A stretch of 64,000 bases of DNA from Devosia sp. Leaf420 (GTDB taxonomy: Bacteria; Pseudomonadota; Alphaproteobacteria; Rhizobiales; Devosiaceae): the NCBI RefSeq assembly GCF_001425445.1, contig NZ_LMQU01000013.1, forward strand, positions 186,001-250,000. The letters are read 5' to 3'. The notes beneath the pieces were generated by a model. It saw only the letters and a list, made by a program, of their open reading frames with translations, did not search any database and was not told the DNA's origin. The translations under genes were made by a program, and so were the position numbers. Below, piece by piece: positions 15,397-49,942 of this stretch. Each line of letters opens with the position of its first letter. The stretch's first letter is position 1.

Positions 15397-15414
15397 TTGG
15401 CACTCCCCTTGCAT
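15397..15414 (+). promoter_or_regulatory. Sigma-54 promoter of flgE
   Basis: TTGGCACTCCCCTTGCAT matches the sigma-54 consensus TGGCAC-N5-TTGC exactly, with GG at 15399-15400 and GC at 15411-15412 (GG-N10-GC spacing). Transcription would start about 12 bases past the GC, near 15424, leaving a leader of about 45 bases before flgE. The upstream activator site is not identified. Confidence 0.88.
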
Positions 15415-15467
15415 TGCTTGGGGCAAACAGGCGCTTGCCTCGTCTATTTGGGGAACTGGAGTTTTAA

Positions 15468-18188
15468 ATGGGTATTTTTGGCGCTCTTCAAAGTGCGGTG
15501 TCCGGCCTAAAGGCCCAGTCGCATGCCATGGAGAACATCTCCGGCAATATCGCCAATTCGCAGACCATCGGCTTCAAGCGGATCGATACGAGCTTTGTGG
15601 ACATGATCCCCGATGCTCCGGTCAAGCAGCAGATTGCCGGTGCCGTTTCGTCCTATTCGCGCTCCATGAATACCCTGCGCGGCGATATTCAGAATGCCGA
15701 AACCGAAACCTACATGGCTCTCAATGGCAACGGCTTCTTCGTTGTCGAGCAGGGCGATGGTTCGGGCGGCACGTTCTACACCCGTCGCGGTGACTTCGAC
15801 ATTGATCGCAACGGCTACCTCGTCAACGGCGCCGGTTATCGCCTGACGGGTCTTGGCATGAACAACGGCGTCGTGACCGGTTCGGTCGCCGAAGCCATCA
15901 AGATCGACAACTCGTTCCTGCCGGCCAAGCGCTCGACGACGATCGACTATCAGCTCAACCTGCCGCAGATCCCGAAAACGTCGTCCTATGTCTCGACGAC
16001 GCCGGGCAGCGAGCTCTTCAAGCCGTGGAATTATTCCAACGTCCAGGGTTCGCCAGCCTTTCCGAAGACCCCTGCGGGTTCGGGCGCGACATTGCCAGCG
16101 ACCACTCCGGCCTATGCCTTCGGCGCGACCGTCAATGGCACGGCAGCAGCCAATTCCATCGTCACCGACAACGATCGTCTCAACGTCACCGTCGGCGGCG
16201 TGACCTATGGCGTGCGGTTCAACACCAATGGCGTCTCGACGCCTGCAGCGACGCTGACCAGCGCGACGGCCGGTAATGCTGCCGTCAGCAAACAGACTAC
16301 GATCACTGTTGCCAGCCGTTCTACCCTAGCTTCGGACGACAATTTCTTCATCGGTTCCACCGCCATTCCACTTGGTGCTGGTGTTACCAACGACGCGCAA
16401 TTCCAGACGGCGATCGAATCTGCACTTGGTCTTGCGCCCGGCTCCGCCGTACTCACCGGTACATCGCTGGTCATCAGCTATCCTGCGGGCGCGTCTCCGG
16501 CCGAAACGTCTGCGGCGGGTACTGGCGTTGCGCTCAGCGCCCCTGGCACCCGCGCTGGTACGCTCGCCACCTCGGCCTCGACCGTCGTCACCGTGCCGAA
16601 GGAAGAACTCGCCAACCTCCGCGCTGCCGGCAACTTCAACATCAACGGCACCGCCGTCACCATCCTGCCGGCAACGGGTCCGATCACTCCAGCCAACTTC
16701 CAGGCTTCGGTGAACGCGGCTATCGCACCAGCAACGGCGACGTATGATGGCGTGACGGGTCAGTTGACCGTTACGTATCCCGCCGGCGCTCGCGCTGCCG
16801 ATACGACAGTGACCGGCTCTGGCACCGAAGTGGCTGCCAACGGCAGCATCACCACGATGCTCGCCGATATGGAAACCAAACTGCGCGCTCTCACCGGTGA
16901 TGCGGGCATGAGCGTCGGTATCCGCAACGGCCGCGTTGCCGTTATCATGGGCGATGCCAGCACGCAGTCCCTGGCGTTCACGACCGATCGCGTCGGCTCC
17001 ATCAGCGGCGATGCCATGGGCCTCAGCCTCACGACGGACACTGCCTCCGGCGTCGACGTCAAGTCGACCAACACTCTTGCGAGCCTCTTGATCGACCACG
17101 GCGATACGCTTTCGATCCAGGTCGGCTCTACCACGCGCACCTACCGCCTCGACACGTCGGGCACGCTCGCCGTCGGCGCGGGTGAAACCCGCATTAACGC
17201 CACCGGCACTGTCGCCGACATGCTGGCCTCCATCGAAGCCGACCTCAAGGCCAATGGCGGCCCAGGTGCTGCCGGCGTCGACGTCGACATGGTCGGTGGT
17301 CGCCTCAGCGTGACCTTTGCCGGCAACTACACCAATAACGTGATGATCTCGGGCAACGCCGCTGGCGCCACCAAGCTCAACATTGCCGGCAGCTATAACG
17401 CGACATCCGGTTCGGTCGACAACATCCTCTCGGCCGACTCCGATCGCTTCGTGTCGGAATCGATCTCGGGCGGCGGTATCACGGTCTACTCGAACACCGG
17501 CGAGCCGGTGAACGTGCAGATGCGCTGGGCCAAGATGGGCGGCACGACGGGCAACGAAACCTGGGGCCTCTTCTATGCCTCCGATAGCCGTCCTGGTGCT
17601 TCCGTCGCCTGGACCAAGCTTGCCGACTACAGCTATGACAACGGCATCCTGAGCGGCATTGCGCCGGCTGGTGGAGTCGCGACGGCAACGGGCACCGAGC
17701 AGCTGACCATCAGCAACCTGACGGTCAACGGCACCTCGCTCGGCCAGATGACTTATAATCACGGTCTCAAGGGCATGACGCAGTTTGCCGACAATAGCGG
17801 CGCTGCCAGCACCACAGCCCTCAAGCAGAACGGTTATGGCGCCGGCGAATTCATCTCGGTTGGCGTTTCCGATGCCGGTCGCGTCGTTGCCTCCTACACC
17901 AATGGCGAAACTCGCGAAGTCGCACAGATCGTGACGGCAAGCTTCAACAATGCCAACGCCCTCAAGCGCGGCGACGGCGGCACCTACACGGCAACCGTCG
18001 AATCCGGTGAGCCGATCGTCGACCAGTCCGGCTCGGGCATCGTGGGTGGTTCTACCGAAGCGTCCAACACCGACATCTCGGAAGAATTCACCAAGCTGAT
18101 CGTCACGCAGCAGGCCTATTCGGCCAACACCAAGATCGTAACGGCAGCCGACGAGATGCTCAAAGAAGCTCTCAACATGATCCGCTGA
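15468..18188 (+). CDS. flgE: Flagellar hook protein FlgE, greatly enlarged
   Basis: 906 residues, about twice the usual 400-450. Conserved ends form the D0/D1 coiled-coil core: N terminus MGIFGALQSAVSGLKAQ with NIANSQTIGFKR, and C terminus EEFTKLIVTQQAYSANTKIV. The FlgE/F/G-type segment FYTRRGDFDIDRNGYLVNGA is near residue 104. The extra length lies between residues ~210 and 670 and consists of Thr/Ala-rich beta modules, two clearly repeated (about 283-355 and 378-456, each ending SYPAGA or TYPAGA). This part would form outward-facing hook domains. Expression is probably from the sigma-54 promoter just upstream. Confidence 0.95.
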   Translation: MGIFGALQSAVSGLKAQSHAMENISGNIANSQTIGFKRIDTSFVDMIPDAPVKQQIAGAVSSYSRSMNTLRGDIQNAETETYMALNGNGFFVVEQGDGSGGTFYTRRGDFDIDRNGYLVNGAGYRLTGLGMNNGVVTGSVAEAIKIDNSFLPAKRSTTIDYQLNLPQIPKTSSYVSTTPGSELFKPWNYSNVQGSPAFPKTPAGSGATLPATTPAYAFGATVNGTAAANSIVTDNDRLNVTVGGVTYGVRFNTNGVSTPAATLTSATAGNAAVSKQTTITVASRSTLASDDNFFIGSTAIPLGAGVTNDAQFQTAIESALGLAPGSAVLTGTSLVISYPAGASPAETSAAGTGVALSAPGTRAGTLATSASTVVTVPKEELANLRAAGNFNINGTAVTILPATGPITPANFQASVNAAIAPATATYDGVTGQLTVTYPAGARAADTTVTGSGTEVAANGSITTMLADMETKLRALTGDAGMSVGIRNGRVAVIMGDASTQSLAFTTDRVGSISGDAMGLSLTTDTASGVDVKSTNTLASLLIDHGDTLSIQVGSTTRTYRLDTSGTLAVGAGETRINATGTVADMLASIEADLKANGGPGAAGVDVDMVGGRLSVTFAGNYTNNVMISGNAAGATKLNIAGSYNATSGSVDNILSADSDRFVSESISGGGITVYSNTGEPVNVQMRWAKMGGTTGNETWGLFYASDSRPGASVAWTKLADYSYDNGILSGIAPAGGVATATGTEQLTISNLTVNGTSLGQMTYNHGLKGMTQFADNSGAASTTALKQNGYGAGEFISVGVSDAGRVVASYTNGETREVAQIVTASFNNANALKRGDGGTYTATVESGEPIVDQSGSGIVGGSTEASNTDISEEFTKLIVTQQAYSANTKIVTAADEMLKEALNMIR
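16314..16835 (+). repeat. Tandem ~75-residue module inside flgE
   Basis: Two diverged copies in the same frame, about 16314-16532 and 16599-16835. They align as NFFIGSTAIPL..FQTAIESAL..LVISYPAGA.PAET..AGTGVAL and NFNINGTAVTI..FQASVNAAI..LTVTYPAGA.AADT..TGSGTEV. Confidence 0.8.
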
Positions 18189-18299
18189 GGTTTTCGCAAT
18201 GCCTTTGGAATGTTGCCCATTCGCTAACCGGCCTCACGGGCTGTCTGACCGGTTAATGCCTCGCCTAGGCAGGCGTTTGAGCAGCATTCCCTTTTTCTC

Positions 18300-18333
18300 A
18301 ACGGTCCCGGTGCTTGCGCCGGGACTCGCCGTT
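18300..18333 (+). terminator. Possible terminator between flgE and flgK
   Basis: Interrupted stem AACGG-TCCCGG pairing with CCGGGA-CTCG-CCGTT around an 8-base loop, followed by only TCTC. It could end flgE transcripts or just be a stable intergenic hairpin. The rest of the 213-base gap shows no promoter I can call with confidence. Confidence 0.4.
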
Positions 18334-20267: not shown

Positions 20268-20281
20268 GGGAGCCGCGCAAG

Positions 20282-22495
20282 ATGCTGATCAACAAGTCCA
20301 TGTATCCGGTCAAGGCAGGCTATAGCGCTATCTCGACCATGCAGTCGCAGCTCGGCAAGCTCCAGACCCAGCTCGGCAGCGGCCAGAAGGCGGAAACGCT
20401 GTCCGAAATGGGGTTCGACCGCACGGTGTCGCTGGCCTCGCGCAATCGCCTGACCAAGCTCGATTCCTTCGCTGCCAACATCAACACGGTGAACCTGCGC
20501 CTCAATTTCCTCGACCAAGCGTTCACCTCGCTCTCCAAGCTCAAGTCCGAAACCCGGACGTCGGCAACGCCGACGAGCTTTGGTGAGAACAACCTCACCA
20601 TGGTGAGCCTGCAGAAGGACTCGCAGAACCGTCTGTCGCAGCTCCTTGAAACGCTGAACCTCAGCGTGGCGGGCCGCTATCTCATGGGCGGCAACAAGAC
20701 GGAAGCTGCGCCCGTCGCGACCTACGACCAGATCATGAATGGCGACGGCACCTCGGACGGCTACCTCAAGGTCGCCGAAGAGCGCCGCAAGGCCGACCTC
20801 GGCAAGGATTCTTCGGATACCCTCGCCAATGTCGGCCTGCCGCGCACGACCGTTACCGGCCCCTGGAAGAACAATCTCGTTCTCTCCTCGGCCGAGTTCG
20901 AGCGCTTCGGCTATTCCATCACCTCGATCTCAGGCAATTCGGACTCGACCCAGACCATGGGCCCCACGGCCGACCCGCTGGCGCCCACCGTGCAGGTTTC
21001 GACCCAGCCGCTCGATGGCGAACTGGTCACCTTCAACATGACTCGCCGCGACGGTACCACGCAGACCCTGACGGCCAAGGCTGTCGCTGCGCCAGCCGTT
21101 CCCGATAGTTCGGCGACGCCGCCGGAATATGCGGTCGGTTCGACGCTCGAAGACACTGCCAAGAACCTCGAAAACCTGATGGGTCAGAAGCTTGGCAATC
21201 TCGACAACTTCAAGCAGTTCCTGTCCTCGGATGCCGATGTGAAAGTCATCGGCTATTCCGACGGCATGAAGGCCGTGTCGGTTAAATTCCAGACCCAGCC
21301 GACCGATGGCGAAACCATCACCATCGGCATCAAGAACGCAGCAACCGGTGTGACCACCGACTATGCGTTCAAGGCCGTTGCCGGTACGCCGGACCCCGCT
21401 GCGAACCCCAAGGAATATCAGATCGGGGTGAGCCGCGAGGAAACGCTGAAGAACCTGCAAGGCGCCCTCAAGACCCATCTTGGTGCCCTCGAAGCGCCGA
21501 TCAAGACCGGTCGGCTTGAAGCTGGTGTGGATGCTATGGCGCCCGAGAAGGTGCGCATTGCGGAAGAATCTCCGCCGACGGTTTTCGGCTACAAGCTCGC
21601 ATCCGCTTCAACCACCAGCAGCCGGATCAATGTCAGCGCCGTTGCCGGCAATCCGGCCAACATGACGGTCGAGTTCATGGGAGTGCCCCGCTCGGGCGAA
21701 TCCGTCACTCTCAACCTGACCATGCCAGACGGCACCAGCAAGGCCGTTATGCTGCAGGCGGTCGATCGTCAGCCCGGCACCGGTCAGTTCGTCATCGGCG
21801 CCAACAAGGAAGAGACGGCTGCCAATTTCGAAGCTGCCCTCAAGATCAAGCTCGATCAGACCAGCAAGACCGATCTCGTCGCAGCATCGAGCTTTGCCGC
21901 GGCCGACGATTTCTTCTCGGCCGATGGGGTGGCGCGCCGCATCGACATGACCGGCGGCGATCCAGAAACGGCGACCGTCTACTCGACGCCCGGCGCTCGC
22001 GATACCGTCAAATGGTACACCGGCGAAATCGGCACAGCGGGGGACAATCCCCGTCGCTCGGCAACGGCTGCGGTCGATGATTCCACCAAGGTCGGCTATG
22101 GCGTCCGCGCCAATGAGTCCGGTCTCCGCGAACTTGTCAAAACCCTCGCTGCCATGAGCAGCCAGGAATACGACGTCAACGACAACACCGCCCAGGCGCG
22201 CTTCAGCTCCATGGTGGAAAAGCAGATGGCGAGCACGTCGAGCGCGACCGCGACCCATGACGGCTCGGTCGAACAGATCGGTCTTGAACTGGGCGTCGTG
22301 CGGGCGACTGTTGGCGGCGCCAAGGAGCGCAACACGGCCTTCTCGGGCCAGCTCCAGACGCTGCTGAGCGAAGTCGAAACCGTCAGCATGGAAGAAACTG
22401 CCATGCAGCTTCTGGCGCTCAAGACGCGCCTAGAGGCGAGCTACCAGACCACGGCCAGCGTCGCGAACCTGAGCCTCGTTAATTACCTCAAATAG
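20282..22495 (+). CDS. flgL: Flagellar hook-associated protein FlgL, enlarged with three internal repeats
   Basis: 737 residues against a usual 300-400. It is identified by gene order after flgK and by flagellin-like helical ends: an N terminus with TMQSQLGKLQTQLGSGQKAE and a C terminus with EETAMQLLALKTRLEASYQT then LSLVNYL. The middle contains three related beta modules (about residues 237-310, 335-400 and 463-535), each of the form GE.VT-N-DGT----A.AV---P---Y.IG---EET-KNL--A. These probably form extra surface domains at the hook-filament junction. Confidence 0.9.
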   Translation: MLINKSMYPVKAGYSAISTMQSQLGKLQTQLGSGQKAETLSEMGFDRTVSLASRNRLTKLDSFAANINTVNLRLNFLDQAFTSLSKLKSETRTSATPTSFGENNLTMVSLQKDSQNRLSQLLETLNLSVAGRYLMGGNKTEAAPVATYDQIMNGDGTSDGYLKVAEERRKADLGKDSSDTLANVGLPRTTVTGPWKNNLVLSSAEFERFGYSITSISGNSDSTQTMGPTADPLAPTVQVSTQPLDGELVTFNMTRRDGTTQTLTAKAVAAPAVPDSSATPPEYAVGSTLEDTAKNLENLMGQKLGNLDNFKQFLSSDADVKVIGYSDGMKAVSVKFQTQPTDGETITIGIKNAATGVTTDYAFKAVAGTPDPAANPKEYQIGVSREETLKNLQGALKTHLGALEAPIKTGRLEAGVDAMAPEKVRIAEESPPTVFGYKLASASTTSSRINVSAVAGNPANMTVEFMGVPRSGESVTLNLTMPDGTSKAVMLQAVDRQPGTGQFVIGANKEETAANFEAALKIKLDQTSKTDLVAASSFAAADDFFSADGVARRIDMTGGDPETATVYSTPGARDTVKWYTGEIGTAGDNPRRSATAAVDDSTKVGYGVRANESGLRELVKTLAAMSSQEYDVNDNTAQARFSSMVEKQMASTSSATATHDGSVEQIGLELGVVRATVGGAKERNTAFSGQLQTLLSEVETVSMEETAMQLLALKTRLEASYQTTASVANLSLVNYLK
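20990..21886 (+). repeat. Three tandem modules inside flgL
   Basis: Copies at about 20990-21211, 21284-21481 and 21668-21886, in frame. Alignable cores are DGELVTFNMTRRDGTTQTL..EYAVGSTLEDTAKNLENLM, DGETITIGIKNAATGVTTD..EYQIGVSREETLKNLQGAL and SGESVTLNLTMPDGTSKAV..QFVIGANKEETAANFEAAL. Confidence 0.88.
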
Positions 22496-22693: not shown

Positions 22694-23068
22694 TCAGGCC
22701 TGGTCGGAACCGCGGAGGCCGGCGGCCAACTGACGGTTGATATTGATCAGGGGCAGAAGCTTGGCCTTGATCGGCTCCATATGGAGCTCGCGGGTCTCGT
22801 TCATGACGAAGAGACCGAGATTGGCGATGTTCTGCCGAACCTGGGCCGGAAGCGGATTATCTTCGCGGGTGACGGAGGTGAGGAAGATGTTCCAGATGCG
22901 GCGGTTGAAAAGCAGTGCCTCGTTGAGGCTCTCCTGCTTCAGGTCCCACGCGTCATGGATAAGCTGGAGGTTGGCAGCCGCCCGCGAAAGCAGATTTGCT
23001 TCGCGATCACGCGGGGCTTCCGTCTTGCGGGCCGTCTGCTGATAGGCCTGCGCTCCCTGATGGTACAT
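22694..23068 (-). CDS. flaF: Flagellar biosynthesis regulator FlaF
   Basis: 124 residues, all-helical, matching FlaF (QGAQAYQQTARKTEAPRDRE at the N terminus; LNEALLFNRRIWNIFLTSV near residue 48; LGLFVMNETRELHMEP near residue 84). In Caulobacter, FlaF is a flagellin secretion chaperone that works against the translational repressor FlbT. Its 5' end lies inside the flbT gene (62-base overlap, different frame), so the two are coupled. Both follow the large flagellin gene on the same strand. Confidence 0.92.
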   Translation of the reverse strand: MYHQGAQAYQQTARKTEAPRDREANLLSRAAANLQLIHDAWDLKQESLNEALLFNRRIWNIFLTSVTREDNPLPAQVRQNIANLGLFVMNETRELHMEPIKAKLLPLININRQLAAGLRGSDQA

Positions 23069-23444
23069 TTGCTAGAAGGTCCTGTTCGTACTGAATAAGC
23101 TTACGGGCTGCCTTGAGAGCTTTGTACAATTGGCCGGTTAAAATCTCGTTGTTGATCCCGTTGATCAGCGTAATCATCGAGGGCGCCGCTTGAATTATGT
23201 CGTTGACAAGGCGGAAATATTCTTCGCGCAAACGGGCCGTATCGTCCTCGAGATACATGAGCTGGACGGCCAGGTAGATTCGCTTTGCGGGGGTATCTGC
23301 CGTGGCGATGGTGAGGATGTCTTTTTCCCGCAGGATAGGGGCCTTGCCGTCGATGAAGAGGCGTGTGCGCTGGTCTGAATTGGTGATGATGCACTGGCCG
23401 ATGATAAGGCGTTCACCGGGCTTCAATTCGACTTTCAGCGACAT
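23007..23444 (-). CDS. flbT: Flagellin mRNA regulator FlbT
   Basis: 145 residues matching FlbT (MSLKVELKPGERLIIGQCII at the N terminus; FLI-type strand RLFIDGKAPILREKDILT; RIYLAVQLMYLEDD). FlbT binds flagellin mRNA leaders and blocks translation until the hook is complete in Caulobacter. The start at 23444 was chosen by family length. The C-terminal ~20 residues overlap flaF. It lies 253 bases downstream of the large flagellin gene, past that gene's terminator, so it may have its own promoter. Confidence 0.92.
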   Translation of the reverse strand: MSLKVELKPGERLIIGQCIITNSDQRTRLFIDGKAPILREKDILTIATADTPAKRIYLAVQLMYLEDDTARLREEYFRLVNDIIQAAPSMITLINGINNEILTGQLYKALKAARKLIQYEQDLLANVPSGSAGLSADGPQDGSPA

Positions 23445-26460: not shown

Positions 26461-26491
26461 ACTAGGTTTTCCTTCTGGACGTGTGGTGCTT

Positions 26492-26510
26492 CGCCTCAAT
26501 TCTTGAGACG
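26492..26510 (-). promoter_or_regulatory. 5' UTR hairpin of the large flagellin gene
   Basis: Minus-strand CGTCTCAA-GAA-TTGAGGCG, 8 bp with one T-G pair, 31-50 bases before the flagellin start codon. It is a candidate target for FlbT, which acts on the 5' UTR of flagellin mRNA in Caulobacter. Inference only. Confidence 0.45.
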
Positions 26511-26949: not shown

Positions 26950-28059
26950 ATGAGCATCAATCTTTCGTCCAACGCCCGTACCGGTCTCACAGTTCTGCGC
27001 AACGTTTCTGAGCAGATGGCCACCACGCAGAGCCGCCTGGTAACTGGTAAGGCCGTGAATAGCCCGCTGGATAACGTCTCGAAGTTCTTCACTGCCTCTT
27101 CGATGGACACCCGCGCTGCTTCGATCGACTCGCTGATGGACAATATCAACGCTGCTCAGTCCTCGATGAAGGCCGCTTCGGAAGGCATCAAGGGCATCCA
27201 GGGCCTCATCAAGGAAGCCCGCGGTCTCACCAGCCAGGCACTGACCTCCTCGGCAACCAATGCGAAGGTCACCGGCACTGCAACCGTGACCGGCACCACG
27301 GCGATCACCGCCGCAGATACGCTGGTTCTGACGACCACGAGCGGCACCTACACTTACACTGCACCGGGTGGTGGTGGCACCGTCCAGGGCCTGATCGACG
27401 GCATCAACGCTGACGCAGACGTCGGTGTGAAGGCTGCGATCGTCGACGGCAAGCTGACCCTCTCCGGCTCGAACAACGAATCCATCACGATCGCCGGCAC
27501 CGGCACCGGCCTGACCGCTCCAGGCTTCACCGCCGCGACCACTGCTGCTCCGAAGAATGCGACCCGTGAAGCGCTTGCCAAGCAGTTCGATGCCCTCAAG
27601 ACCGAAATCGATCGGATTGCCAAGGACGCAGGCATCAACGGCACCAACCTGCTCAATGGTGACAAGATCAAGCTGGCGCTCAACGAAGACGGTTCGTCCT
27701 CGACCTCGATCGATGGCACGGTGGTGAATGCTGCAAGCCTCGGCGTTGCCGGTGCAGCCGGTACCTGGCAGTCCGACAAGAACATCACCGACTCTCTCGA
27801 TGACCTGATCGCTGCTGCCGATACGCTGGAAGCCACTGCCGCATCGTTCAGCTCGACCCAGTCGATCATCAATGCCCGCAAGGATTTCAACGCCTCGCTC
27901 TCGGATATCCTCAAGTCCAGCGCCAATTCGCTGACTGCCGCCGATATGGATCAGGAAGCTGCGAACCTCGTCGCTCTCCAGACCCGCCAGCAGATGGCCA
28001 CCACGGCCCTCTCGATCATGCAGTCTTCCGAGACCACGGCTCTCCGCCTCATCTCGTAA
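26950..28059 (+). CDS. Flagellin (369 residues)
   Basis: Flagellin with N terminus MSINLSSNARTGLTVLRNVS and C terminus ANLVALQTRQQMATTALSIM then ETTALRLIS. The middle, about residues 115-200, carries one beta module (ITAADTLVLTTTSGTYTYTA..LIDGINADADVGVKAAIVDG..LTLSGSNNESITI) of the kind present several times in the giant flagellin next door. The two flagellins are divergently arranged. The start at 26950 is preceded by GGAGCAGGAAG; the longer in-frame start at 26851 adds non-conserved sequence. Confidence 0.95.
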   Translation: MSINLSSNARTGLTVLRNVSEQMATTQSRLVTGKAVNSPLDNVSKFFTASSMDTRAASIDSLMDNINAAQSSMKAASEGIKGIQGLIKEARGLTSQALTSSATNAKVTGTATVTGTTAITAADTLVLTTTSGTYTYTAPGGGGTVQGLIDGINADADVGVKAAIVDGKLTLSGSNNESITIAGTGTGLTAPGFTAATTAAPKNATREALAKQFDALKTEIDRIAKDAGINGTNLLNGDKIKLALNEDGSSSTSIDGTVVNAASLGVAGAAGTWQSDKNITDSLDDLIAAADTLEATAASFSSTQSIINARKDFNASLSDILKSSANSLTAADMDQEAANLVALQTRQQMATTALSIMQSSETTALRLIS

Positions 28060-29219: not shown

Positions 29220-29539
29220 TAACGGTACACTCCTGTTACACGCGGATTAGTTTGTTGGCTGGCTTCCTGCAGGGCGATCATGTCGCCCATCAATTGGTCG
29301 GCAATGCCGAGGCCGCCATTTTGAGCCATGGAATTGGCAAGTTGTTCGGACTGGATCGAGCGCCAGGTCTCTTCACCGAAGCCGCCGCCGAAGCCGTTGT
29401 CGGATTTGGCCGTCGCGAACATTTCCTTAGTGAGAAGGTTGAGGAAGACGCCTTCGAAATCCTCGGCCTGCTTACGGATCTTGTCGATCTGGTGGCTGTT
29501 GAGGCTGGTCTTGATGCCGTTGACGATTGTGGTTTCCAT
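29219..29539 (-). CDS. Rod-binding protein (FlgJ N-terminal domain / CheL type)
   Basis: 106 residues corresponding to the rod-binding half of FlgJ only, without a muramidase domain (KQAEDFEGVFLNLLTKEMF near residue 23; GGFGEETWRSIQSEQLANSM near residue 51). In alphaproteobacteria this short form (often called CheL) acts as a rod capping or assembly factor. It overlaps flgI by one base and the flgN-like gene by three. Confidence 0.88.
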   Translation of the reverse strand: METTIVNGIKTSLNSHQIDKIRKQAEDFEGVFLNLLTKEMFATAKSDNGFGGGFGEETWRSIQSEQLANSMAQNGGLGIADQLMGDMIALQEASQQTNPRVTGVYR

Positions 29540-30663
29540 CAGAGCACCTCGATTTCAGCTTGAAGAGCGCCAGTCGCCTTGATGGCCTGGAGGATGGCGA
29601 TCAGATCGCGGGGCGAAATGCCGAGCGCGTTGAGCCCGTCGACGAGTTCCTGCAAGGTTACGGATTCGTTGATCACCTGCAGGGCCGTATCGGTCTGGCT
29701 GACGCTGAGATCGGTGCTTGGCTGTACGGCGGTCTGGCCCTGGCTAAAGGGTGCTGGCTGCACGACGGTCGGGTTTTCGGCAATCGAGACAGTCAGGTTC
29801 GACTGGGCCACGGCAACGCTCGACACGCGGACATCCTTGCCCATGACGATGATACCGCTGTTTTCGTCGATGACGATCTTGGCCGACTGGTCGGTCTGGA
29901 TGATGAGCTGCTCAACGTCGGTCAGCAGATCGACGATATTGCCGTTGAAATTGACGGGTAGGGTGAGGCGAACGGTGGACGGATCTTCCGGCACGGCTGT
30001 CGCTGCACCGATGAAATCGTTGATTGCCATGGCGATGCGGCGCGAGGTGGTGAGATCCGGGTTCCGCAGGGCAAGGCGCAGCGAATGCTGGGCGCCGAGT
30101 TCGAAACCGATTTCGCGTTCCACCAAGGCGCCAGAGGAAATGCGGCCGGTGGTTGGCACGCCCGAAACGATGCTCGCCGCGTCGCCTTCCGCGCTAAAAC
30201 CGTTGATGGTGACCGGGCCCTGCGCGATGGCAAAGACTTCGCCGTCGGCGCCGAGGAGGGGAGTTACCAGCAAAGTACCGCCCTGGAGGCTCTTGGCATT
30301 GCCGAGCGAAGCAACAGAAATGTCGATGCGCTGACCCTGCGTGGCGAAAGGTGGCAGGCTGGCGGTCACCATCACGGCGGCAACATTTGCCGTTCGGACA
30401 TTCTCGCCGGCTGTGTTGACGCCAAGCCGTTCGAGCATGGATTGCAGCGACTGCTTGGTGAATGGCGAATTGTTGAGGCTGTCGCCTGTGCCATTGAGAC
30501 CAACGACGAGACCATAGCCGACAAGCTGATTCTCGCGGATGCCTTCGACGTCGACGATGTCCTTGATACGGGCAGGCGCTGCGGCTGCCTGGGCGATAGG
30601 GCCCAGTGCCAGCGCGGCGCCGACCGCTATAAGAAGGCCAATACGGAAGAAGCTCTTTGGCAT
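29539..30663 (-). CDS. flgI: Flagellar P-ring protein FlgI
   Basis: 374 residues with a Sec signal peptide (hydrophobic core IGLLIAVGAALALG) and family motifs RIKDIVDVEGIRENQLVGYG, GLNGTGDSLNNSPFTKQSL and SLGNAKSLQGGTLLVTPL. It forms the periplasmic P ring around the rod. The start at 30663 begins the signal peptide; the frame is open further up but adds non-signal sequence. It is the first gene of flgI-rod protein-flgN, with a sigma-54-type promoter about 60 bases upstream. Confidence 0.95.
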   Translation of the reverse strand: MPKSFFRIGLLIAVGAALALGPIAQAAAAPARIKDIVDVEGIRENQLVGYGLVVGLNGTGDSLNNSPFTKQSLQSMLERLGVNTAGENVRTANVAAVMVTASLPPFATQGQRIDISVASLGNAKSLQGGTLLVTPLLGADGEVFAIAQGPVTINGFSAEGDAASIVSGVPTTGRISSGALVEREIGFELGAQHSLRLALRNPDLTTSRRIAMAINDFIGAATAVPEDPSTVRLTLPVNFNGNIVDLLTDVEQLIIQTDQSAKIVIDENSGIIVMGKDVRVSSVAVAQSNLTVSIAENPTVVQPAPFSQGQTAVQPSTDLSVSQTDTALQVINESVTLQELVDGLNALGISPRDLIAILQAIKATGALQAEIEVL

Positions 30664-30720
30664 CTGTTTCCCCGAGAGTGCGCGGCACCATCCCCATGGC
30701 GCTGCAGTTCGCAACACTCA

Positions 30721-30738
30721 ATGCCAGAAGCGTGCCAA
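30721..30738 (-). promoter_or_regulatory. Sigma-54 promoter of flgI
   Basis: Minus strand reads TTGGCACGCTTCTGGCAT: a perfect -24 element (TTGGCACG), correct GG-N10-GC spacing, and a -12 element TGGC instead of TTGC. The GC pair is at 30724-30723 and the flgI start at 30663, giving a leader near 48 bases. Confidence 0.75.
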
Positions 30739-30843
30739 ACTCGGATTTTCTGCATAAATCATTGTAATGCTTAAGTTTACGGCCGGATATCGCGCTCGGC
30801 TGCCCGCCCTAAATGTGCCGGTGTGCAATTCTTGCCGGGAACA

Positions 30844-30859
30844 TTAAGTGGTCCTTAAC
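30844..30859 (+). promoter_or_regulatory. CtrA box before fliX
   Basis: TTAA-GTGGTCC-TTAAC matches the full CtrA consensus TTAA-N7-TTAAC. It ends 51 bases before the fliX start, where it could overlap a -35 region. fliX is also a CtrA-controlled early flagellar gene in Caulobacter. Confidence 0.82.
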
Positions 30860-30910
30860 CATGTCGGGCAGATTTTGCCTGTGACAGGAATTTGGGAGTG
30901 ACTGAGTCCC

Positions 30911-31330
30911 GTGCGTATCGAAACCGCCAATCGCATGAGTAGTGTGTCTTCACGTGCCGCCGTGGGGAAATATGCTGCCGGCCAGTCTTTTACGATGTCG
31001 GATGTTTCGGGCCCCGCACGGGTGGCCCGCACAGCGCCGGTCGTCGCTTTGACCCCGCTCGACGCGATTCTTGCTATCCAGTCGGTTGGCGATGCCATGG
31101 GCGGCAAGCGCAAGGCGGTGAAGCGCGGCAGCAACCTGCTCGACCTCCTCGAAGGCATCAAGGCCGATCTGCTCGTTGGCGATATCACGCCCGATCGGCT
31201 CGATGCGCTGGTCAAGGAACTCAGCACCTATCGCGACCGGACCGAACCGGGGCTTGATGACCTGTTGGACGATATCGAACTGCGCGTCCGCGTCGAGCTC
31301 GCCAAGCAGGGTCTCTTCCCGCCTTTCTGA
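30911..31330 (+). CDS. fliX: Flagellar assembly trans-acting regulator FliX
   Basis: 139 residues from a GTG. It matches the FliX pattern: N-terminal MRIETANR; a central stretch containing ALTPLDAILAIQSVGDA; a basic KRKAVKRGSNLLDLLEGIKA; and C-terminal DDLLDDIELRVRVELAKQG. In Caulobacter, FliX couples early basal-body assembly to FlbD, the sigma-54 activator of later flagellar genes. Its presence beside three sigma-54 flagellar promoters supports the same circuit here. It is divergent from flgI and has a CtrA box upstream. Confidence 0.92.
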   Translation: MRIETANRMSSVSSRAAVGKYAAGQSFTMSDVSGPARVARTAPVVALTPLDAILAIQSVGDAMGGKRKAVKRGSNLLDLLEGIKADLLVGDITPDRLDALVKELSTYRDRTEPGLDDLLDDIELRVRVELAKQGLFPPF

Positions 31331-32388: not shown

Positions 32389-32489
32389 TTCTCGTCTCCT
32401 TCAGTGCGGCAGAAATTGCCTCTCACCCTGGCGACGAATTCAAGCGAAGCCCTTCGACATTTTTGCGACGTCATTTTTCGAAAAAGACA

Positions 32490-32941: not shown

Positions 32942-33079
32942 TTGGTTCTCCAAGCGGTTCTGCGTTCCCGGTGCTGGTGGTTCCCAGCGCATGAAAAGAG
33001 CTTAGAGCCATTGGGCTGAACCCATCCGGAGCAGGGCGTTCAGAATGCGTTCAGCGATTCCCTGTCGCCAAAAGATAAA

Positions 33080-33097
33080 GCCCCGGCGGACCGGGGC
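33080..33097 (-). terminator. Terminator of csgH
   Basis: Minus strand GCCCCGG-TCCG-CCGGGGC then TTTATCTTTT; perfect 7-bp stem, 27 bases past the csgH stop. It separates csgH from the downstream curlin gene. Confidence 0.85.
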
Positions 33098-33124
33098 AAT
33101 GTCGGATCAGTGGAGCAGATACGG

Positions 33125-33502
33125 TTAGATGCGGCCGGTGCTCTGCGAGCAATCATAGCTCTTGCCGCCGATCGTGACCGTGAAGCTGACCTTGGCATTG
33201 GCGCTTGAATTGATCATCACCTGGCCGATCGAGACTTCGGTATTGGCCATGGCCGCAAAGGGGCCGCCCTGGTTGATATTGCTCGATCCACCGCCGCCCG
33301 ACGAGCGCAGCGAGAAGGTGTAGTCGCCGGTCAGCACGGTCGGGCTCATCAGCCGGCCCTGATAGGTGGTCATGCCCGATTGTGTCGTCGTTTCAACGCC
33401 GCAGGTGAAGTTGCCGCCATCGGCATTGGCCGTCGCGACCGCGCCAATTCCAGCGAGCGCTACGACACCGGCGATAAGGCCTTGGGTCAGTGGGGTAATC
33501 AT
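33125..33502 (-). CDS. csgH: Curli assembly protein CsgH
   Basis: 125 residues with an N-terminal signal sequence (hydrophobic LIAGVVALAGIGAV, ANA-D cleavage). The mature beta-rich domain has two cysteines (NFTCGVE near its start, YDCSQS near its end) that can form one disulfide. The features VLTGDYTFSLRSSGGGGSSN and GPFAAMANTEVSIGQV match alphaproteobacterial CsgH, a periplasmic inhibitor of premature curlin polymerisation. It lies between two curlin-like genes on the same strand, consistent with that role. Confidence 0.8.
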   Translation of the reverse strand: MITPLTQGLIAGVVALAGIGAVATANADGGNFTCGVETTTQSGMTTYQGRLMSPTVLTGDYTFSLRSSGGGGSSNINQGGPFAAMANTEVSIGQVMINSSANAKVSFTVTIGGKSYDCSQSTGRI

Positions 33503-33530
33503 GTCGTCCTCCTGATACGCGGGGAAGGGC

Positions 33531-33550
33531 GGGGCTGGCGAACCAGCCCC
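33531..33550 (-). terminator. Stable hairpin between curlin gene and csgH
   Basis: GGGGCTGG-CGAA-CCAGCCCC, a perfect 8-bp stem without a following U-run on the minus strand. It is better seen as an mRNA-stability or partial-termination element favouring the upstream curlin message. Confidence 0.5.
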
Positions 33551-33562
33551 TGGCCTTTGACT

Positions 33563-33997
33563 TCAGTTGCAGGCCTGCACGAAGGCAGTCACATTGCCAG
33601 AACCCTGCTGCACGACGTTGGCATTGCAATTATTGCCCACCTGCACGCCGGCCGTGATGTTGCCATTGCCGTCCTGGGTGATGACCGAGGTGTGGTTGTT
33701 GCCGAACTGGCCGACACCAGCCTGGTTGTTCCAGCCGTTCTGGTAGACGTCCCCCTTGTTCCAATTGCCCTGCTGGCCGATGGCGGAGACATTGTTGCCG
33801 CCCTTCTGCTGGCTCGTTGCCTTGTTCCACCAGCCGGTCTGCTTGGTCGAAAAAGTCTGGTTCCAGCCCGACTGGCTGCCGCCCACCTGATTGCCCCAGC
33901 CGTACTGGTCGATATGGATGCCGGCGGCCATCGCAGGCGCAGCGGCAGAAGCGATGACGGTGGTGGCAAGAGCGGCGATGAAGAGCTTGCGGATCAT
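33563..33997 (-). CDS. Tryptophan-rich curlin-like amyloid subunit
   Basis: 144 residues with a signal peptide (LFIAALATTVIASAAAPAMA). The mature part has curlin-type repeats rich in Asn, Gly and Gln: QYGWGNQVGGSQSGWNQ, KQTGWWNKATSQQKGGNN, IGQQGNWNKGDVYQNGWNN, VGQFGNNHTSVITQDGNGN. Tryptophan appears at the position before Asn in several repeats, which is unusual for CsgA. The last part holds two cysteines (NNCNAN, VQACN). It is the first gene of the curlin-csgH pair and probably the major fibre subunit. Confidence 0.82.
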   Translation of the reverse strand: MIRKLFIAALATTVIASAAAPAMAAGIHIDQYGWGNQVGGSQSGWNQTFSTKQTGWWNKATSQQKGGNNVSAIGQQGNWNKGDVYQNGWNNQAGVGQFGNNHTSVITQDGNGNITAGVQVGNNCNANVVQQGSGNVTAFVQACN

Positions 33998-38537: not shown

Positions 38538-39278
38538 TCACGCGTTCATGGAGCCGAGGCGCTTGATCGCATCGCGACGCATGTCGTCCTGCTTCTGGCC
38601 CAGCGAGGCGATGGATTCGTAGGCTCGCGTCACGCGGATCATTTCGGCCATTTCGGAAACGCTCGAGACGTTCGACTTCTCGGTAAAGCCCTGCAGCACC
38701 CGCGAATTGGTCGCCGGCACCGGCGTGCCGCCGGCGAGCAGGTTGTTGCCCTGGCGGGTCAAAGCCTGCGGGTCGGCGAATTCGACGACGCGAAGCTGGC
38801 CCTTGGCGCCTTCGCTCGACGAGATCGACCCATCGGCTGCAATCTTGATATCGGTTTCTTCGGGGCCGAATTGGATCTGGCCGCCGGTGCCCATGACGGG
38901 GTTGCCGGCGAGATCGACGAGCGTGCCCGCATTGTTGAGCTGGAAGGCGCCGGAGCGGGTGTAGCGTTCACCAGCAGCAGTCTGCACGGTGAAGAAGCCG
39001 TCACCCGAAATCGCAACGTCGAGGGGCGCATCGGTCTGAACCATCGCACCGGCAGAAAAGTCCTGCACCGTTGCCCAGTCCTGAACATAGGACAGAGTGC
39101 GATCCTGACCCGAGAAGTCGCCATGGCGGGCGACCGGCATCTTATACTCTTCGTACAAGAGCTGTTCGGCCTTGAAGCCACCCGTGTTAACGTTGGCGAT
39201 ATTGTTGGCCACCATGTCCATCTGGCGCTGCAGAGCCATTTGGCGCGACAGGCCGATGAGTTGTGCGTTCTCGATCAT
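38538..39278 (-). CDS. flgF: Flagellar proximal rod protein FlgF
   Basis: 246 residues. N-terminal IGLSRQMALQRQMDMVANNI with NTGGFKAEQ and C-terminal SSVSEMAEMIRVTRAYESIA are of the FlgF type; it is shorter and more diverged than FlgG next door. It is the first gene of the minus-strand flgF-flgG-flgA-flgH operon, with a sigma-54-type promoter about 65 bases upstream. Confidence 0.92.
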   Translation of the reverse strand: MIENAQLIGLSRQMALQRQMDMVANNIANVNTGGFKAEQLLYEEYKMPVARHGDFSGQDRTLSYVQDWATVQDFSAGAMVQTDAPLDVAISGDGFFTVQTAAGERYTRSGAFQLNNAGTLVDLAGNPVMGTGGQIQFGPEETDIKIAADGSISSSEGAKGQLRVVEFADPQALTRQGNNLLAGGTPVPATNSRVLQGFTEKSNVSSVSEMAEMIRVTRAYESIASLGQKQDDMRRDAIKRLGSMNA

Positions 39279-39343: not shown

Positions 39344-39363
39344 ATGCAGAAACCATGCCAGAT
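39344..39363 (-). promoter_or_regulatory. Sigma-54 promoter of flgF operon
   Basis: Minus strand CTGGCATGGTTTCTGCATTT: -24 TGGCAT (consensus TGGCAC) and -12 CTGCAT (consensus TTGCA) with exact GG-N10-GC spacing (GG at 39359-39358, GC at 39347-39346). The predicted start of transcription is near 39334, about 56 bases before flgF. Confidence 0.68.
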
Positions 39364-39478
39364 TGGGTTCTTCTGCGTTTTCAATGGGTTATTGAAATGG
39401 ACCGGTTAACTTTGCCGGGTGCTCGTTTTACTTCGCGGCAAGTAATGCCCGGCAGATATTGCCGACTAGGGGTCAAAA

Positions 39479-39494
39479 GTAACCAAGCGTTAAC
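39479..39494 (+). promoter_or_regulatory. CtrA box of the fliL operon
   Basis: GTAA-CCAAGCG-TTAAC: correct 7-base spacing, one mismatch in the first half-site. The fliLM operon of Caulobacter is a direct CtrA target. With the box near -35, transcription would begin around 39510-39530, which favours the fliL ATG at 39560. Confidence 0.65.
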
Positions 39495-39559
39495 CAAGAT
39501 GGCATTAGGTGGACTCATCGCCGGAATCGTCCGGCATGGTTGCATCTGGCGGGGTTTGC

Positions 39560-46451: not shown

Positions 46452-46820
46452 TCAGAACTGCAGGATCAATATAGCTATCGCCACAGCAACGACAATCGCC
46501 ATGATCAAGATATGGATGTGCACCCTACGCTCCTGCGCTGATCCAGATCGGGCCAGAACCTTCAGCCGGTGCGCACGGAGGCCACGGTCGAGATTTTCGG
46601 GCTCGTAAAGGCTTGTGCAAACCGGAGTGAAGTCCGGCTGCATGTGCCAAACGAGCGCCCGAAGATTGGCCGGTGAGCCAACTGGTATAAGCTGGCATCC
46701 GACTACACGCTCGCCCGCCGCTACCGGAGAGGATGCCTCGATTAGCACACTCTCCGGGACCGGCTCTCTACGGCCAGGCAGCACACGCTGCACGCCGTAG
46801 AGCTTCTTTTCCTGCCTCAT
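46452..46820 (-). CDS. Small C-tail membrane protein coupled to nhaA, unknown function
   Basis: 122 residues. The bulk is hydrophilic (PGRREPVPESVLIEASSPVA; SPANLRALVWHMQPDFTPVC) and the last 20 residues form a single membrane segment (IHILIMAIVVAVAIAILILQ), so the protein looks tail-anchored. The start codon overlaps the nhaA stop (ATGA), so translation follows that of the antiporter. I recognise no family. No terminator-like hairpin is obvious in the 168-base gap to the TPR gene stop. Confidence 0.6.
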   Translation of the reverse strand: MRQEKKLYGVQRVLPGRREPVPESVLIEASSPVAAGERVVGCQLIPVGSPANLRALVWHMQPDFTPVCTSLYEPENLDRGLRAHRLKVLARSGSAQERRVHIHILIMAIVVAVAIAILILQF

Positions 46821-48016
46821 CAGACTGGTTTTGCCTTCTGCTCGGGCGCGCGCGCTTGAGACGTGCCGAGCACGAGCGCGCCGAGCAAGGCTGAGATTAG
46901 AGATCCCAAGAGAACGCCGAGTTTGACCTCGTCCTGCAGCAGCGTTGAGTCAGGGAAGGCAAGCAAGCCAATAAAGAGGCTCATGGTGAAGCCAATGCCG
47001 CAAAGAAGGGACACCCCATAGACCTGCCGCCATGTTGCATACATCGGCAATTCGGCCCAGCCGGCACGAATGACGAGTGCGGCCGCCGCAAAGACCCCGA
47101 CCTGCTTGCCGATGACGAGGCCCGCCGCAACACCGAGCGGCACTGGATCGGCAAGTTGGCCGATCGACATACCCGCGAAAGACACGCCGGCATTGGCAAA
47201 ACCGAAGATCGGCAGGATCAGGAAGGTCACCCAGGGTTGCAGGCCGTGCTCAAGCTTATGCAGCGGGGAATTCATGTCGTCAGGACGCGTAGGGCTCGGG
47301 CGTAGCGGGATCGTCAGCGCGAGAACGACGCCAGCAAGCGTAGCGTGGATGCCTGATTGCAGGACGAAGAACCAGAGCACCGCGCCGAGCAGCAAATAGG
47401 GCCACAGCACACGCACCCCAGTCCGGTTCATGGCAACGAGCGCAACGATGAGACCAGCAGCGAGGCCAAGGTTCATCATATCAATTGAGGTCGTATAGAA
47501 GAGCGCAATGATGATGACAGCGCCAAGGTCATCGATGATGGCGAGAGCGGTCAGGAACACTTTTAGCGTTGTGGGCACGCGCGATCCCAAAAGCGACAGT
47601 ACGCCAAGCGCGAAGGCAATGTCCGTCGCGGCCGGGATGGCCCAGCCGTTGGGGTGACCTGTTGGTCCCATATTGAACGCCAGATAAATCAGCGCAGGCC
47701 CCACCATACCGCCTATGGCGGCAGAGCCGGGCAGAACGCGCCTCGGCCATGTCGAAAGCTGCCCATCGATGACCTCCCGCTTGATCTCGAGACCGACCAA
47801 CAGAAAGAACAGCGCCATCAAGCCGTCATTGATCCAATGATGCACCGAGAGGCCGCCGACATAGGCGTGAAGCCCATCGAAGTAAGCGGCGGCGAGCGGC
47901 GAATTGGCGACCAGGATGGCGAGCGCCGCGGCAACCATGAGAATGATACCGCCCGAAGAGGCGTTGTCGAGAAAGGCGCGGAGAAGAGAAACGGGACGCG
48001 TGGGCGCAGCAGACAT
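46820..48016 (-). CDS. nhaA: Na+/H+ antiporter NhaA
   Basis: 398 residues with 11-12 membrane helices. It matches Nha[19 protein letters not shown] carries the pH/ion-site Asp equivalent to E. coli Asp133, and [18 protein letters not shown] the Asp163-Asp164 pair that binds Na+ or Li+. Also [20 protein letters not shown] and [19 protein letters not shown]. It exports Na+ (and Li+) in exchange for protons. AAGGAG lies 10-15 bases before the ATG. The leader contains a folded RNA candidate at 48055-48112. Confidence 0.96.
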
Positions 48017-48054
48017 TGTCGCCAGCTCCTTAAGACACGGATGTTCGGAAAAGT

Positions 48055-48112
48055 GGTTTAGGCCCGACGCGACAAAGCGCGTGGCAGCTCAACAGCCGCC
48101 GCTGGGTAAACC
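48055..48112 (-). ncRNA. Structured leader RNA of nhaA, candidate cation (nhaA-I/Li+-type) riboswitch
   Basis: Minus-strand three-way junction. P1 is GGTTTA-CCC pairing with GGG-CC-TAAACC (2-base bulge). P2 is GGCGGCT-GTTG-AGCTGCC (7 bp, one G-U). P3 is ACGCG-CTTTGT-CGCGT (5 bp). It ends 39 bases before the nhaA start codon. The CCAGC straddling P1 and the junction could instead pair with GCTGG beside the AAGGAG ribosome site, a possible on/off switch. nhaA-I motif RNAs, reported as Li+-sensing, precede nhaA in alphaproteobacteria; I could not compare with that consensus directly. Confidence 0.5.
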
Positions 48113-48402
48113 AGAAATGCAATGAAGATGGAGTGGCTTTGTTCAGCCAAGCACAAGTGGGCCATGGGTCTCTTTCGAGATTCTGTTCCGCTGGCGGCCC
48201 GACCAGCGCAATCCTGCCCCATGAGGGCACCCGAGGAAGGTCTAGCGACCTGTGTCGGAAAGTTCAAGCAATGTTGGGATGCGGTTAGCGACCATGAAGC
48301 GTGCCAAATCTCTTCCCGCACCAATGTTGGCTTATGATGAATGTGAGTTTAAAGCCGCCAACCTTCGTCCCAACCCTCGTCTGCCGTTTAGCCCAACACC
48401 AC
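48113..48402. other. Intergenic region upstream of the nhaA leader
   Basis: Part of a 386-base gap between nhaA and fliP (both minus strand). Apart from the leader RNA I see no gene, repeat or clear terminator here. It should hold the nhaA promoter, which I cannot place with confidence. Short open frames in it lack coding character. Confidence 0.5.
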
Positions 48403-49197: not shown

Positions 49198-49816
49198 GCG
49201 TTATGCTTTCGTTAACCGGCTCGTCTTCGCCTTCTTTAGCTGAGTCGGCCGCGTTTACGGGCGAAATGTCCGCTTTATACCCCGGCGGCAAAGTGTCCTG
49301 CGTCGTTACCGGGCGCAGCAGGCCCGTGTGGCGCAGCGATTTGCCCGGCGCATGCTCGCGCACCTTGTTGGCTTCACGGGCGCGATCTGCGGCGGCGCCG
49401 GGGCCCGCGGCTACAGTCGCAGCCGGCACAATCGTCGGCTTTATATCGGTCTTGCGCCCTTCACTGGCTGGGCGGCGACCAACCATGGGTACAGGGCGGC
49501 GCGAGGTTTGCGCGGCGGGCGGCTCCGGAGGCGTGATCCCCGATTCCACGACGAGGTCCTGGCTGCCGCCGGTCAGGATCAGGTGTTCGACATTGTCGCG
49601 CCGCACGATCAGCAATTGCCGCTTCTGATCGACCACCAGAGTGTCGATGATCGCGAGGCGCCGATTGCGTCCGCGCACGCCGTTGCTCGACACGTTGAAG
49701 ACCAGTTTGAGCAGCCATACACCGAAGATGATGAGGACGATTACGGCCCCGAGGGCGAAGAAAGCGGTCAGGTATGTACTGCCGCTACCGCCGAAAAGGC
49801 TGGTGATGAACTGCAC
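49160..49816 (-). CDS. fliO: Flagellar biosynthesis protein FliO
   Basis: 218 residues. One N-terminal membrane helix (AFFALGAVIVLIIFGVWLLK) is followed by the FliO domain (RRLAIIDTLVVDQKRQLLIV, VEHLILTGGSQDLVVESGI). A Pro/Ala/charged C-terminal tail of about 110 residues is likely disordered. FliO helps FliP assemble. The gene is first in a two-gene minus-strand operon facing flgB. The long tail accounts for the overlap with fliP. Confidence 0.85.
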   Translation of the reverse strand: MQFITSLFGGSGSTYLTAFFALGAVIVLIIFGVWLLKLVFNVSSNGVRGRNRRLAIIDTLVVDQKRQLLIVRRDNVEHLILTGGSQDLVVESGITPPEPPAAQTSRRPVPMVGRRPASEGRKTDIKPTIVPAATVAAGPGAAADRAREANKVREHAPGKSLRHTGLLRPVTTQDTLPPGYKADISPVNAADSAKEGEDEPVNESITRDHEAQGESNRN

Positions 49817-49926
49817 TGATTCTAACTCCTAAAGTGGCCGCCGTGATTCTGACGGGCATTTTCTGCCCAGTCAAACCAGGCAATCGTGCAGATTGCGAGG
49901 CAATTTGGGACAGCATGCGTGCTCAA

Positions 49927-49942
49927 TTAACTCTTCTTTAAC
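49927..49942 (+). promoter_or_regulatory. CtrA box of the flgB operon
   Basis: TTAA-CTCTTCT-TTAAC, an exact match to TTAA-N7-TTAAC, 52 bases before the flgB start. Early basal-body operons are CtrA targets in Caulobacter. It might also affect the divergent fliO promoter. Confidence 0.82.

Follow-up and report, generated by a model that had tools for sequence, protein, structure and literature searches.

The 64,000-nucleotide stretch of the Devosia sp. Leaf420 genome analysed here (hereafter the window; contig 13 of a 4.2-Mb genome, G+C 60.5%) carries many flagellar genes, and we describe the elements by which these genes are likely to be wired into a regulatory hierarchy of the Caulobacter type: CtrA boxes, sigma-54 promoters, a GGCA-N5-TGCC palindrome that accompanies both, and hairpins in the leaders of the flagellin messengers (Table 1). 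Genes were supported by Pfam, and FlbD, CckA, CtrA and FlbT by NCBIfam cut-offs. Pfam backs flgE, flgK, flaF, flbT, two flagellins, flgI, fliX, flgH, flgA, flgG and flgF, and also fliL, fliM, fliP, flgC, fliE, fliR and flhB; flgF, flgG and flgC match the common rod domains and were separated by position and length, and flgB (49994), for which no Pfam match was obtained, is named by position only. The genes fliX, flbT, flaF and cckA, which a preliminary description of this DNA had placed close together, are all present in the window by Pfam or NCBIfam. The same description had called the genome Hyphomicrobiales-like, which was correct and can be narrowed to Devosia or a very near relative, as Devosia records rank first in a scan with FlgI (nearest in the named-genome scan: an uncultured Devosia metagenome-assembled genome with 97% identity; D. 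soli, 91%).

Table 1. Genes, putative regulatory sites and leader elements of the window, ordered by position.
Feature	Position	Strand	Basis and remarks
Palindrome upstream of flgE, putative FlbD enhancer	15298..15310	.	exact; 87 bp to sigma-54 site
Sigma-54 promoter of flgE, TGGCACTCCCCTTGCA	15398..15413	+	one mismatch
flgE, hook protein, 906 aa	15468..18188	+	Pfam PF06429, PF22692, PF00460
flaF	22694..23068	-	Pfam PF07309
flbT	23007..23444	-	PF07378; NF009432 185.3 bits, cut-off 153; start inferred from where Pfam/NCBIfam matches begin
Flagellin 1, about 920 aa	23698..26460	-	Pfam PF00669 and PF00700; ATG set from leader analysis
Flagellin 1 leader (candidate FlbT target): AGAA-loop hairpin and, at the ribosome-binding site, a shorter one of 3 bp	26461..26509	-	RNA model R1
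Flagellin 2 leader hairpin: CCGGC stem, 7-nt loop with AGAA	26900..26916	+	sequence; loop longer than the 4-5 nt of others
Flagellin 2	26950..28059	+	Pfam PF00669
flgI, P-ring protein	29539..30717	-	Pfam PF02119
Sigma-54 promoter of flgI, TGGCACGCTTCTGGCA	30722..30737	-	one mismatch
Palindrome on upstream side of fliX box, putative FlbD site	30824..30836	.	one mismatch; 86 bp to flgI sigma-54 site
CtrA box of fliX, TTAAGTGGTCCTTAACC	30844..30860	+	exact pattern
Palindrome downstream of fliX box	30867..30879	.	GGCA-N5-TGCC; sequence and conservation
fliX	30911..31330	+	Pfam PF10768, 108.8 bits
flgF, rod protein	38538..39278	-	Pfam rod and FlgE/F/G domains; flgF, not flgG, by position
Sigma-54 promoter of flgF, TGGCATGGTTTCTGCA	39345..39360	-	two mismatches
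Two palindromes between flgF and fliL	39437..39463	.	both exact; 76 and 90 bp to flgF sigma-54 site
CtrA box of fliL, GTAACCAAGCGTTAACC, GTAA-N7-TTAACC	39479..39495	+	one mismatch; pattern and conservation
Palindrome in fliO/flgB intergenic region	49855..49867	.	conservation upstream of flgB box
CtrA box of flgB operon, TTAACTCTTCTTTAACC	49927..49943	+	exact pattern
Palindrome just downstream of flgB box	49951..49963	.	one mismatch here; conservation
cckA	54134..56848	+	NCBIfam NF046020 1261.7 bits, cut-off 1000

Searched with the pattern TTAA-N7-TTAA, the whole 64 kb contains exactly two CtrA boxes, at 30844 in front of fliX and at 49927 in front of flgB, and a further one with one mismatch precedes fliL; the fliF promoter, on another contig and looked at in this genome only, likewise has a box with one mismatch. 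The sigma-54 pattern was TGGCACG-N4-TTGCW with GG and GC obligatory, and only two sites with at most one mismatch are found in the window, at 15398 (flgE) and at 30737 on the minus strand (flgI). Five sites have two mismatches, of which one belongs to flgF (39360, minus strand) and the other four lie inside open reading frames. In the stretch 30717-30737, the sigma-54 site of flgI abuts the called GTG, and the true flgI start is for this reason probably located downstream of it.

The sites were followed in relatives, for which the best 80 of 138 FlgI-based loci were taken, giving 81 fliX/flgI sequences together with the window; close relatives are frequent among them, and conservation counts here and below are numbers of sequences, not of independent events. 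Dinucleotide shuffles served as control for the fliX box, shuffles for the flgI sigma-54 site, and the reversed motif for genome counts. The preliminary description had assigned CtrA boxes to the early genes fliX, flgB and fliL, and these are indeed conserved: at fliX, 66 of 81 sequences have the box within one mismatch (shuffles: mean 0.28, maximum 2), and within two mismatches it is present in 40 of 40 at fliL and in 27 of 27 at flgB, the latter being the complete loci out of 30. The sigma-54 promoters that it had proposed for flgE, flgI and flgF were found again as well. At flgI, a site with at most two mismatches lies between the called starts in 62 of 81 sequences (shuffles: mean 1.34, maximum 5), and the remaining 19 have one by the same threshold once the stretch is extended into the called reading frame, a count made without shuffle control that brings the number to 81/81. 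At flgF the site is kept in 40/40 with at most two mismatches, and at flgE in each of the 42 rows left after filtering for match and length (four of them repeats), 36 with at most two mismatches and 6 with three. In all 80 FlgI-fetched loci, fliX is divergent from flgI. The view that no flagellar promoter of this region carries both kinds of element holds for single promoters, but the divergent regions fliX/flgI and fliL/flgF contain both kinds side by side. A CtrA half-site beside the flgE promoter, TTAACCAT, was considered as evidence for dual control and was dropped, as it is not conserved in relatives; the flgE stretch in which it lies has a motif resembling that of integration host factor in 25 of 43 sequences with at most one mismatch (shuffles: mean 3.7, maximum 9).

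An alignment of 64 sequences of the fliX/flgI region revealed two further conserved blocks that flank the CtrA box, and both fit the palindrome GGCA-N5-TGCC; in the upstream block a single mismatch is frequent. The exact palindrome is present in the fliX/flgI region in 76 of 81 sequences (92 sites versus 0.3 in shuffles), in the fliL/flgF region in 39 of 40 (54 versus 0.5), and upstream of flgE in 39 of 43, with this genome counted twice (42 versus 0.4). Its spacing to the CtrA box is regular at fliX and flgB. With one mismatch allowed, fliX has a copy beginning 20 bp ahead of the box in 56 of 66 sequences and one beginning 8 bp behind it in 54 of 66, and 59 of 66 have copies on both sides. 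At flgB, a downstream copy always follows the box by 9-10 bp; all 27 loci have it with no more than one mismatch, and in 25 of them it is exact. An upstream copy with at most one mismatch within 110 bp of the box occurs in 24 of 27, is exact in 14, and in most cases stands 70-72 bp away. The fliL copies are situated 3-16 bp upstream of their box, and the fliF promoter of this genome shows the same palindrome-box-palindrome order as fliX. On the side of the middle genes, the median distance between palindrome and sigma-54 site is 86 bp at flgI (n=62), 87 bp at flgF (n=39, nearest copy) and 86 bp at flgE (n=39). The order that the preliminary description had given, with CtrA at the early and sigma-54 at the middle tier, stood, and what it overlooked is the palindrome as the link between these tiers. 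Genome-wide, a tighter version of the pattern gives 23 distinct sites (21 matches forward and 18 in reverse, compared with 9 and 10 for the reversed control); six are intergenic, and four of these are flagellar, namely fliX/flgI, fliL/flgF, fliF and fliK-flgD. The tighter pattern misses flgE and flgB.

Two occurrences of the palindrome outside this set of promoters may be recorded separately. An exact copy at 32408-32420 lies in the intergenic region between a YCII-domain gene and a curlin gene and is suggestive of a possible link of curli to a flagellar regulator, and another on a different contig (L210; G000:C9:128598-128610, locus 1501-1513) stands at the start of an orphan reading frame of 104 aa without Pfam match.

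The genome encodes the regulators of such a circuit. The presence of flbD, rpoN and ctrA elsewhere in the genome had been set beforehand as a check, and all three were found: FlbD by NF050807 (823.8 bits, cut-off 750), CtrA by NF045991 (420.7 bits, cut-off 350) and RpoN as the single PF04552 match in the genome. The flbD and ctrA genes are 10 kb apart on another contig (C11), alongside fliF, flhA, fliK and flgD, with flbD placed between fliF and flhA. FlbD retains the GAFTGA motif, with which sigma-54 activators touch RNA polymerase. The FleQ domain PF06490, which had been considered as a marker of FlbD, has no match in the genome and was dropped in favour of the NCBIfam identification. In total, six clear and two weak matches to sigma-54 activators were obtained. 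Ten OmpR-type DNA-binding domains are encoded, and a comparison of nine of these proteins (L017 left out) with NCBIfam gave none named Rem or FtcR at E values up to 1e-45, whereby it was not checked that the library has such a model. Concerning the full CckA-CtrA-FliX/FlbD-sigma-54-FlbT cascade that had been suggested for this bacterium, all named parts are therefore encoded, but the full Caulobacter order did not hold up, as the flagellin promoters that were examined have no sigma-54 site.

The same components are widespread. Of 397 genomes of the order, 213 have an FlbD above the cut-off, and by a hand count 32 of the 52 families of the order have at least one genome with an FlbD match at E <1e-170; for FliX, 207 of the 385 class genomes are above the cut-off. 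The expectation that retention of the Caulobacter circuit would be notable here was thus not borne out, also in view of the published FlbD-FliX system of Bradyrhizobium (see below), and the view that the Hyphomicrobiales as a rule lost this flagellar circuit has to be corrected, since about half of the sampled genomes have FlbD. The families without FlbD represent one side of a split and presumably include the model rhizobia. In the set of papers that was searched, a single, unrelated paper was obtained for CtrA and flagella in Devosia. The promoter arrangement was followed into the class with the 30 best-scoring FliX loci, one of them of the same order. In 29 of the 30, a divergent flgI has a sigma-54 site with at most three mismatches, in 25 with at most two (counted without shuffle control), and 20 of the 30 contain the exact palindrome (shuffles: mean 0.36, maximum 3).

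We consider it quite likely that the flagellar genes of this bacterium follow a Caulobacter-type hierarchy with the same early and middle tiers and a changed flagellin tier. In Caulobacter, FlbD is gated by FliX and acts at ftr sites, where it represses the early gene fliF and switches on middle genes (PMC3930126). The palindromes are placed where ftr sites would be expected, which is why we read them as probable FlbD sites that would close the early and open the middle genes. Genes, boxes, palindromes, their spacing and the hairpins, together with the conservation of these elements, are seen in the sequence itself. With the binding partners, the position of RNA polymerase and the direction of control as we infer them from this placement, phosphorylated CtrA would, via CckA, activate fliX, flgB, fliL and the fliF-flbD-flhA stretch on the other contig, its boxes lying near the predicted -35 regions of the early operons. 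FlbD, gated by FliX, would bind the GGCA-N5-TGCC palindromes and, at flgE, flgI and flgF, act as an enhancer from a position about 86 bp upstream of the sigma-54 promoter. At fliX and flgB the palindrome probably lies over the -10 region, and FlbD could thereby shut the early genes when switching on the middle ones. In the divergent fliX/flgI and fliL/flgF regions, one set of sites probably serves both arms, with repression on the one and activation on the other. In the last tier, FlbT probably gates flagellin translation via the leader hairpins that are described below. The promoter rule is compact: an early CtrA box is flanked by GGCA-N5-TGCC, the palindrome stands about 86 bp from middle sigma-54 sites, and divergent regions share it.

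It is quite unlikely, in our estimate, that the palindrome is bound not by FlbD but by another protein, such as an NtrC/NtrX-like sigma-54 activator or a repressor. The six clear sigma-54 activators of the genome would provide candidates, and of the six intergenic sites that the tighter pattern yields, two are away from known flagellar genes. However, the conserved sites cluster at flagellar promoters and at enhancer distance from sigma-54 sites, the palindrome recurs between fliX and flgI in the 20 class loci mentioned above, and it is flbD that is found between fliF and flhA, although gene context was looked at for FlbD alone of the six. A number of other results weigh against the hierarchy with FlbD at the palindrome and have to be set against the conservation. 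That FlbD is the binder is itself an inference; FliX stays below the NCBIfam equivalog cut-offs (best 92.3 versus 175) despite its Pfam match; of the 23 sites that the tighter pattern yields in the genome, 17 fall inside reading frames, as judged by our own calls; and the distance of 86 bp is a median only, with ranges of 10-109 bp (flgI), 74-103 bp (flgF) and 63-88 bp (flgE). In the class sample, the copy nearest to 86 bp is 52-117 bp from the sigma-54 site and only 3 of 20 fall within 80-92 bp, a spread by which a fixed enhancer distance as a class-wide rule is ruled out. The CtrA box of fliX is missing at the threshold of one mismatch from 15 of 81 fliX regions, most plainly in Maritalea and Pleomorphomonas, and it is present at this threshold in only 6 of the 30 class loci. 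CtrA input on fliX can therefore be lost, and the class counts indicate that the FlbD/sigma-54 wiring of flgI would be old, with the CtrA input on fliX being more variable. Finally, the genome as a whole has no excess of the bare box (23 sites versus 32 of the reversed control), so that the motif alone proves little, and it is the retention of the sites at orthologous positions that settles the promoter pattern. That the TTAA boxes are chance AT-rich words, with something else driving the early genes, would fit this lower count but is hardly credible, given that conservation at fliX is far above shuffles, that flgB and fliL keep the box throughout, and that the spacing to the palindromes is near-fixed at fliX and flgB.

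Beside these counts, we note that five Maritalea loci (L082, L083, L085, L087, L088) have lost the fliX box and kept the fliL box and the sigma-54 sites. Laboratory strains of Devosia such as D. riboflavina (L025) and D. soli (L021) have the fliX and fliL elements in common with the window.

The flagellin tier looks different. Upstream of both flagellins of the window, the best sigma-54 match has four mismatches, and among the rows listed no flagellin upstream region has a sigma-54 site with fewer than three mismatches (flagellin 1, 19 of 19 with the window included; flagellin 2, 25 of up to 38). The window flagellins also have no exact palindrome, and a single copy with one mismatch is found in the flagellin 2 leader; among the rows listed, isolated exact palindromes occur at the flagellins of four relatives. 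In two genomes of one family of another order (L236, L240), a flagellin has a sigma-54 site, palindromes and an AGRA hairpin. Judged from these upstream regions, flagellin seems not to be under sigma-54 here.

What recurs in front of the flagellins is a hairpin with an AGRA loop. With at least four pairs, it is present in 90 of 134 leaders (shuffles: mean 5.1, maximum 11) and missing from 44, and two hairpins of at least three pairs each are found in 67 of 134. Among loop tetranucleotides with at least 15 occurrences, AGAA comes first (38%) and AGGA second (35%; all positions, 4.5%), and the 131 hairpins show 32 different 4-bp stems. Pairing was assessed with the loop as anchor in 100 leaders that have a single upper AGRA and a 5-nt loop, the control being partners dealt anew. 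The upper hairpin pairs at 70-92% per position versus 47-70% in the control, with the inner four pairs in 65 of 100, and the lower one, over the ribosome-binding site, is weaker (43-80% versus 33-62%; inner four pairs in 15 of 84). A 4-nt loop of the upper hairpin was unsupported for all leaders together, whereas the 5-nt loop was supported. Covariation is strong: in 26 leaders, 40 cells were changed on both sides of the stem versus 9.8 in shuffles, in rows preselected for hairpins, which favours the count. An RNA model (R1) was trained on these 26 leaders, that of flagellin 1 among them, and applied to 640 kb made up of the window, two stretches of this genome and 26 of the 80 named loci. It gave 36 matches at E values up to 1, and every one of them lies at a flagellin start; 17 of these are training rows and 19 are not. 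R1 misses flagellin 2 of the window. Its best match in this genome is the flagellin 1 leader (26.3 bits, E 0.038), a training row, and three other genome matches (E 0.39 to 8.4) are not at a flagellin start as far as the reading frames show. R1 was also run on 20 regions from genomes of the class (380 kb in total; three regions belong to the same order). Its strongest match there (E 4.4e-5) falls on a flagellin start in a genome of another order, and 5 of the ten flagellin leaders found in these regions have an AGRA hairpin. Rfam gave no match in flagellin leaders at E values up to 1.

The flbT and flaF genes adjoin flagellin, and FlbT is the natural candidate for a binder of the hairpins, because it has been proposed to bind flagellin leaders (PMC4347634). 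We see an even chance that FlbT has its RNA target in the AGRA-loop hairpins and that this target is conserved well beyond Devosia, in which case the upstream one would serve to recruit FlbT and the second, at the ribosome-binding site, would hold translation until the hook is complete. If this is true, the apparent lack of a sigma-54 promoter at flagellin would make an RNA switch the main hook-to-filament checkpoint. It is possible, if doubtful, that the hairpins are bound by nothing in particular and simply adjust how flagellin is translated or how stable its mRNA is: a hairpin at the ribosome-binding site could have this effect by itself, and the 44 leaders without an AGRA hairpin of at least four pairs would be in line with this. 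The loop, however, stays AGRA while the stems vary, two such hairpins are found in half of the leaders, and the same model finds the leader of another order. A hairpin over the ribosome-binding site is a familiar layout of CsrA targets, and many loops are AGGA, but a CsrA target is very unlikely, as about half of the loops are AGAA and have no GGA, and as PF02599 has no match in this genome, by which CsrA was rejected as the binder. With FlbT as the candidate partner, the flagellin leader hairpins are the most novel part of the circuit and the part most worth a bench test.

Several further features of the region were noted. FlgE has 906 aa, whereas the open frame in relatives mostly has 450-730 aa; the extra middle part amounts to about 300 aa, and matches to relatives omit about residues 200-530. 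Flagellin 1 is also long, as is the protein in flgL position (20282-22495, 737 aa), which has no flagellar Pfam match. Genes with curlin repeats and a CsgH gene are located within the flagellar region (32537-33997, minus strand), between dksA and the flgH operon. An nhaA-I RNA, a known riboswitch family (RF03057, 45.7 bits), was identified at 48189-48232 on the minus strand, upstream of nhaA (46820-48016), and is the sole match of an Rfam scan of the window.

Compared with known systems, the circuit is closest in its upper tiers to Caulobacter crescentus, with which it has in common the regulators including FlbT and FlaF (PMC3930126, PMC3096577, PMC7064773, PMC6180460), the predicted action of CtrA on early genes, and that of sigma-54 on hook, P-ring and rod genes. 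In both tiers the palindromes, as candidate counterparts of ftr, occupy the places where ftr sites are expected. The difference lies in the flagellins: the six flagellin genes of Caulobacter are described as RpoN-dependent (PMC3930126), in contrast to the flagellin promoters examined here. In Bradyrhizobium diazoefficiens, FlbD-FliX are reported as flagellar class II regulators (Dardis et al. 2021, as cited in PMC9977809, PMC12918737 and PMC13390405), so that FlbD-FliX control of flagella exists in the same order, but some Bradyrhizobium additionally carry a lateral flagellum (PMC6406911). The fla2 system of Rhodobacter (Cereibacter) sphaeroides is similar in having CtrA boxes in divergent flagellar promoters and differs in being expressed without RpoN, which is reported there as unpublished results, and FlbD is absent from the Rhodobacteraceae shown in that paper (PMC6180460).

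With regard to the leaders, FlbT of Caulobacter and Brucella has been proposed to bind the 5' leader of flagellin, and the passages of the review PMC4347634 that we cite list the mechanism as unresolved and give no RNA motif. The flagellin leader is the proposed target in both cases. What differs is that here recurrent AGRA-loop hairpins, often two of them, could be defined by comparison and are a candidate for the FlbT target, and a recurrent RNA element is now available at the very place where this mechanism acts according to the proposal.

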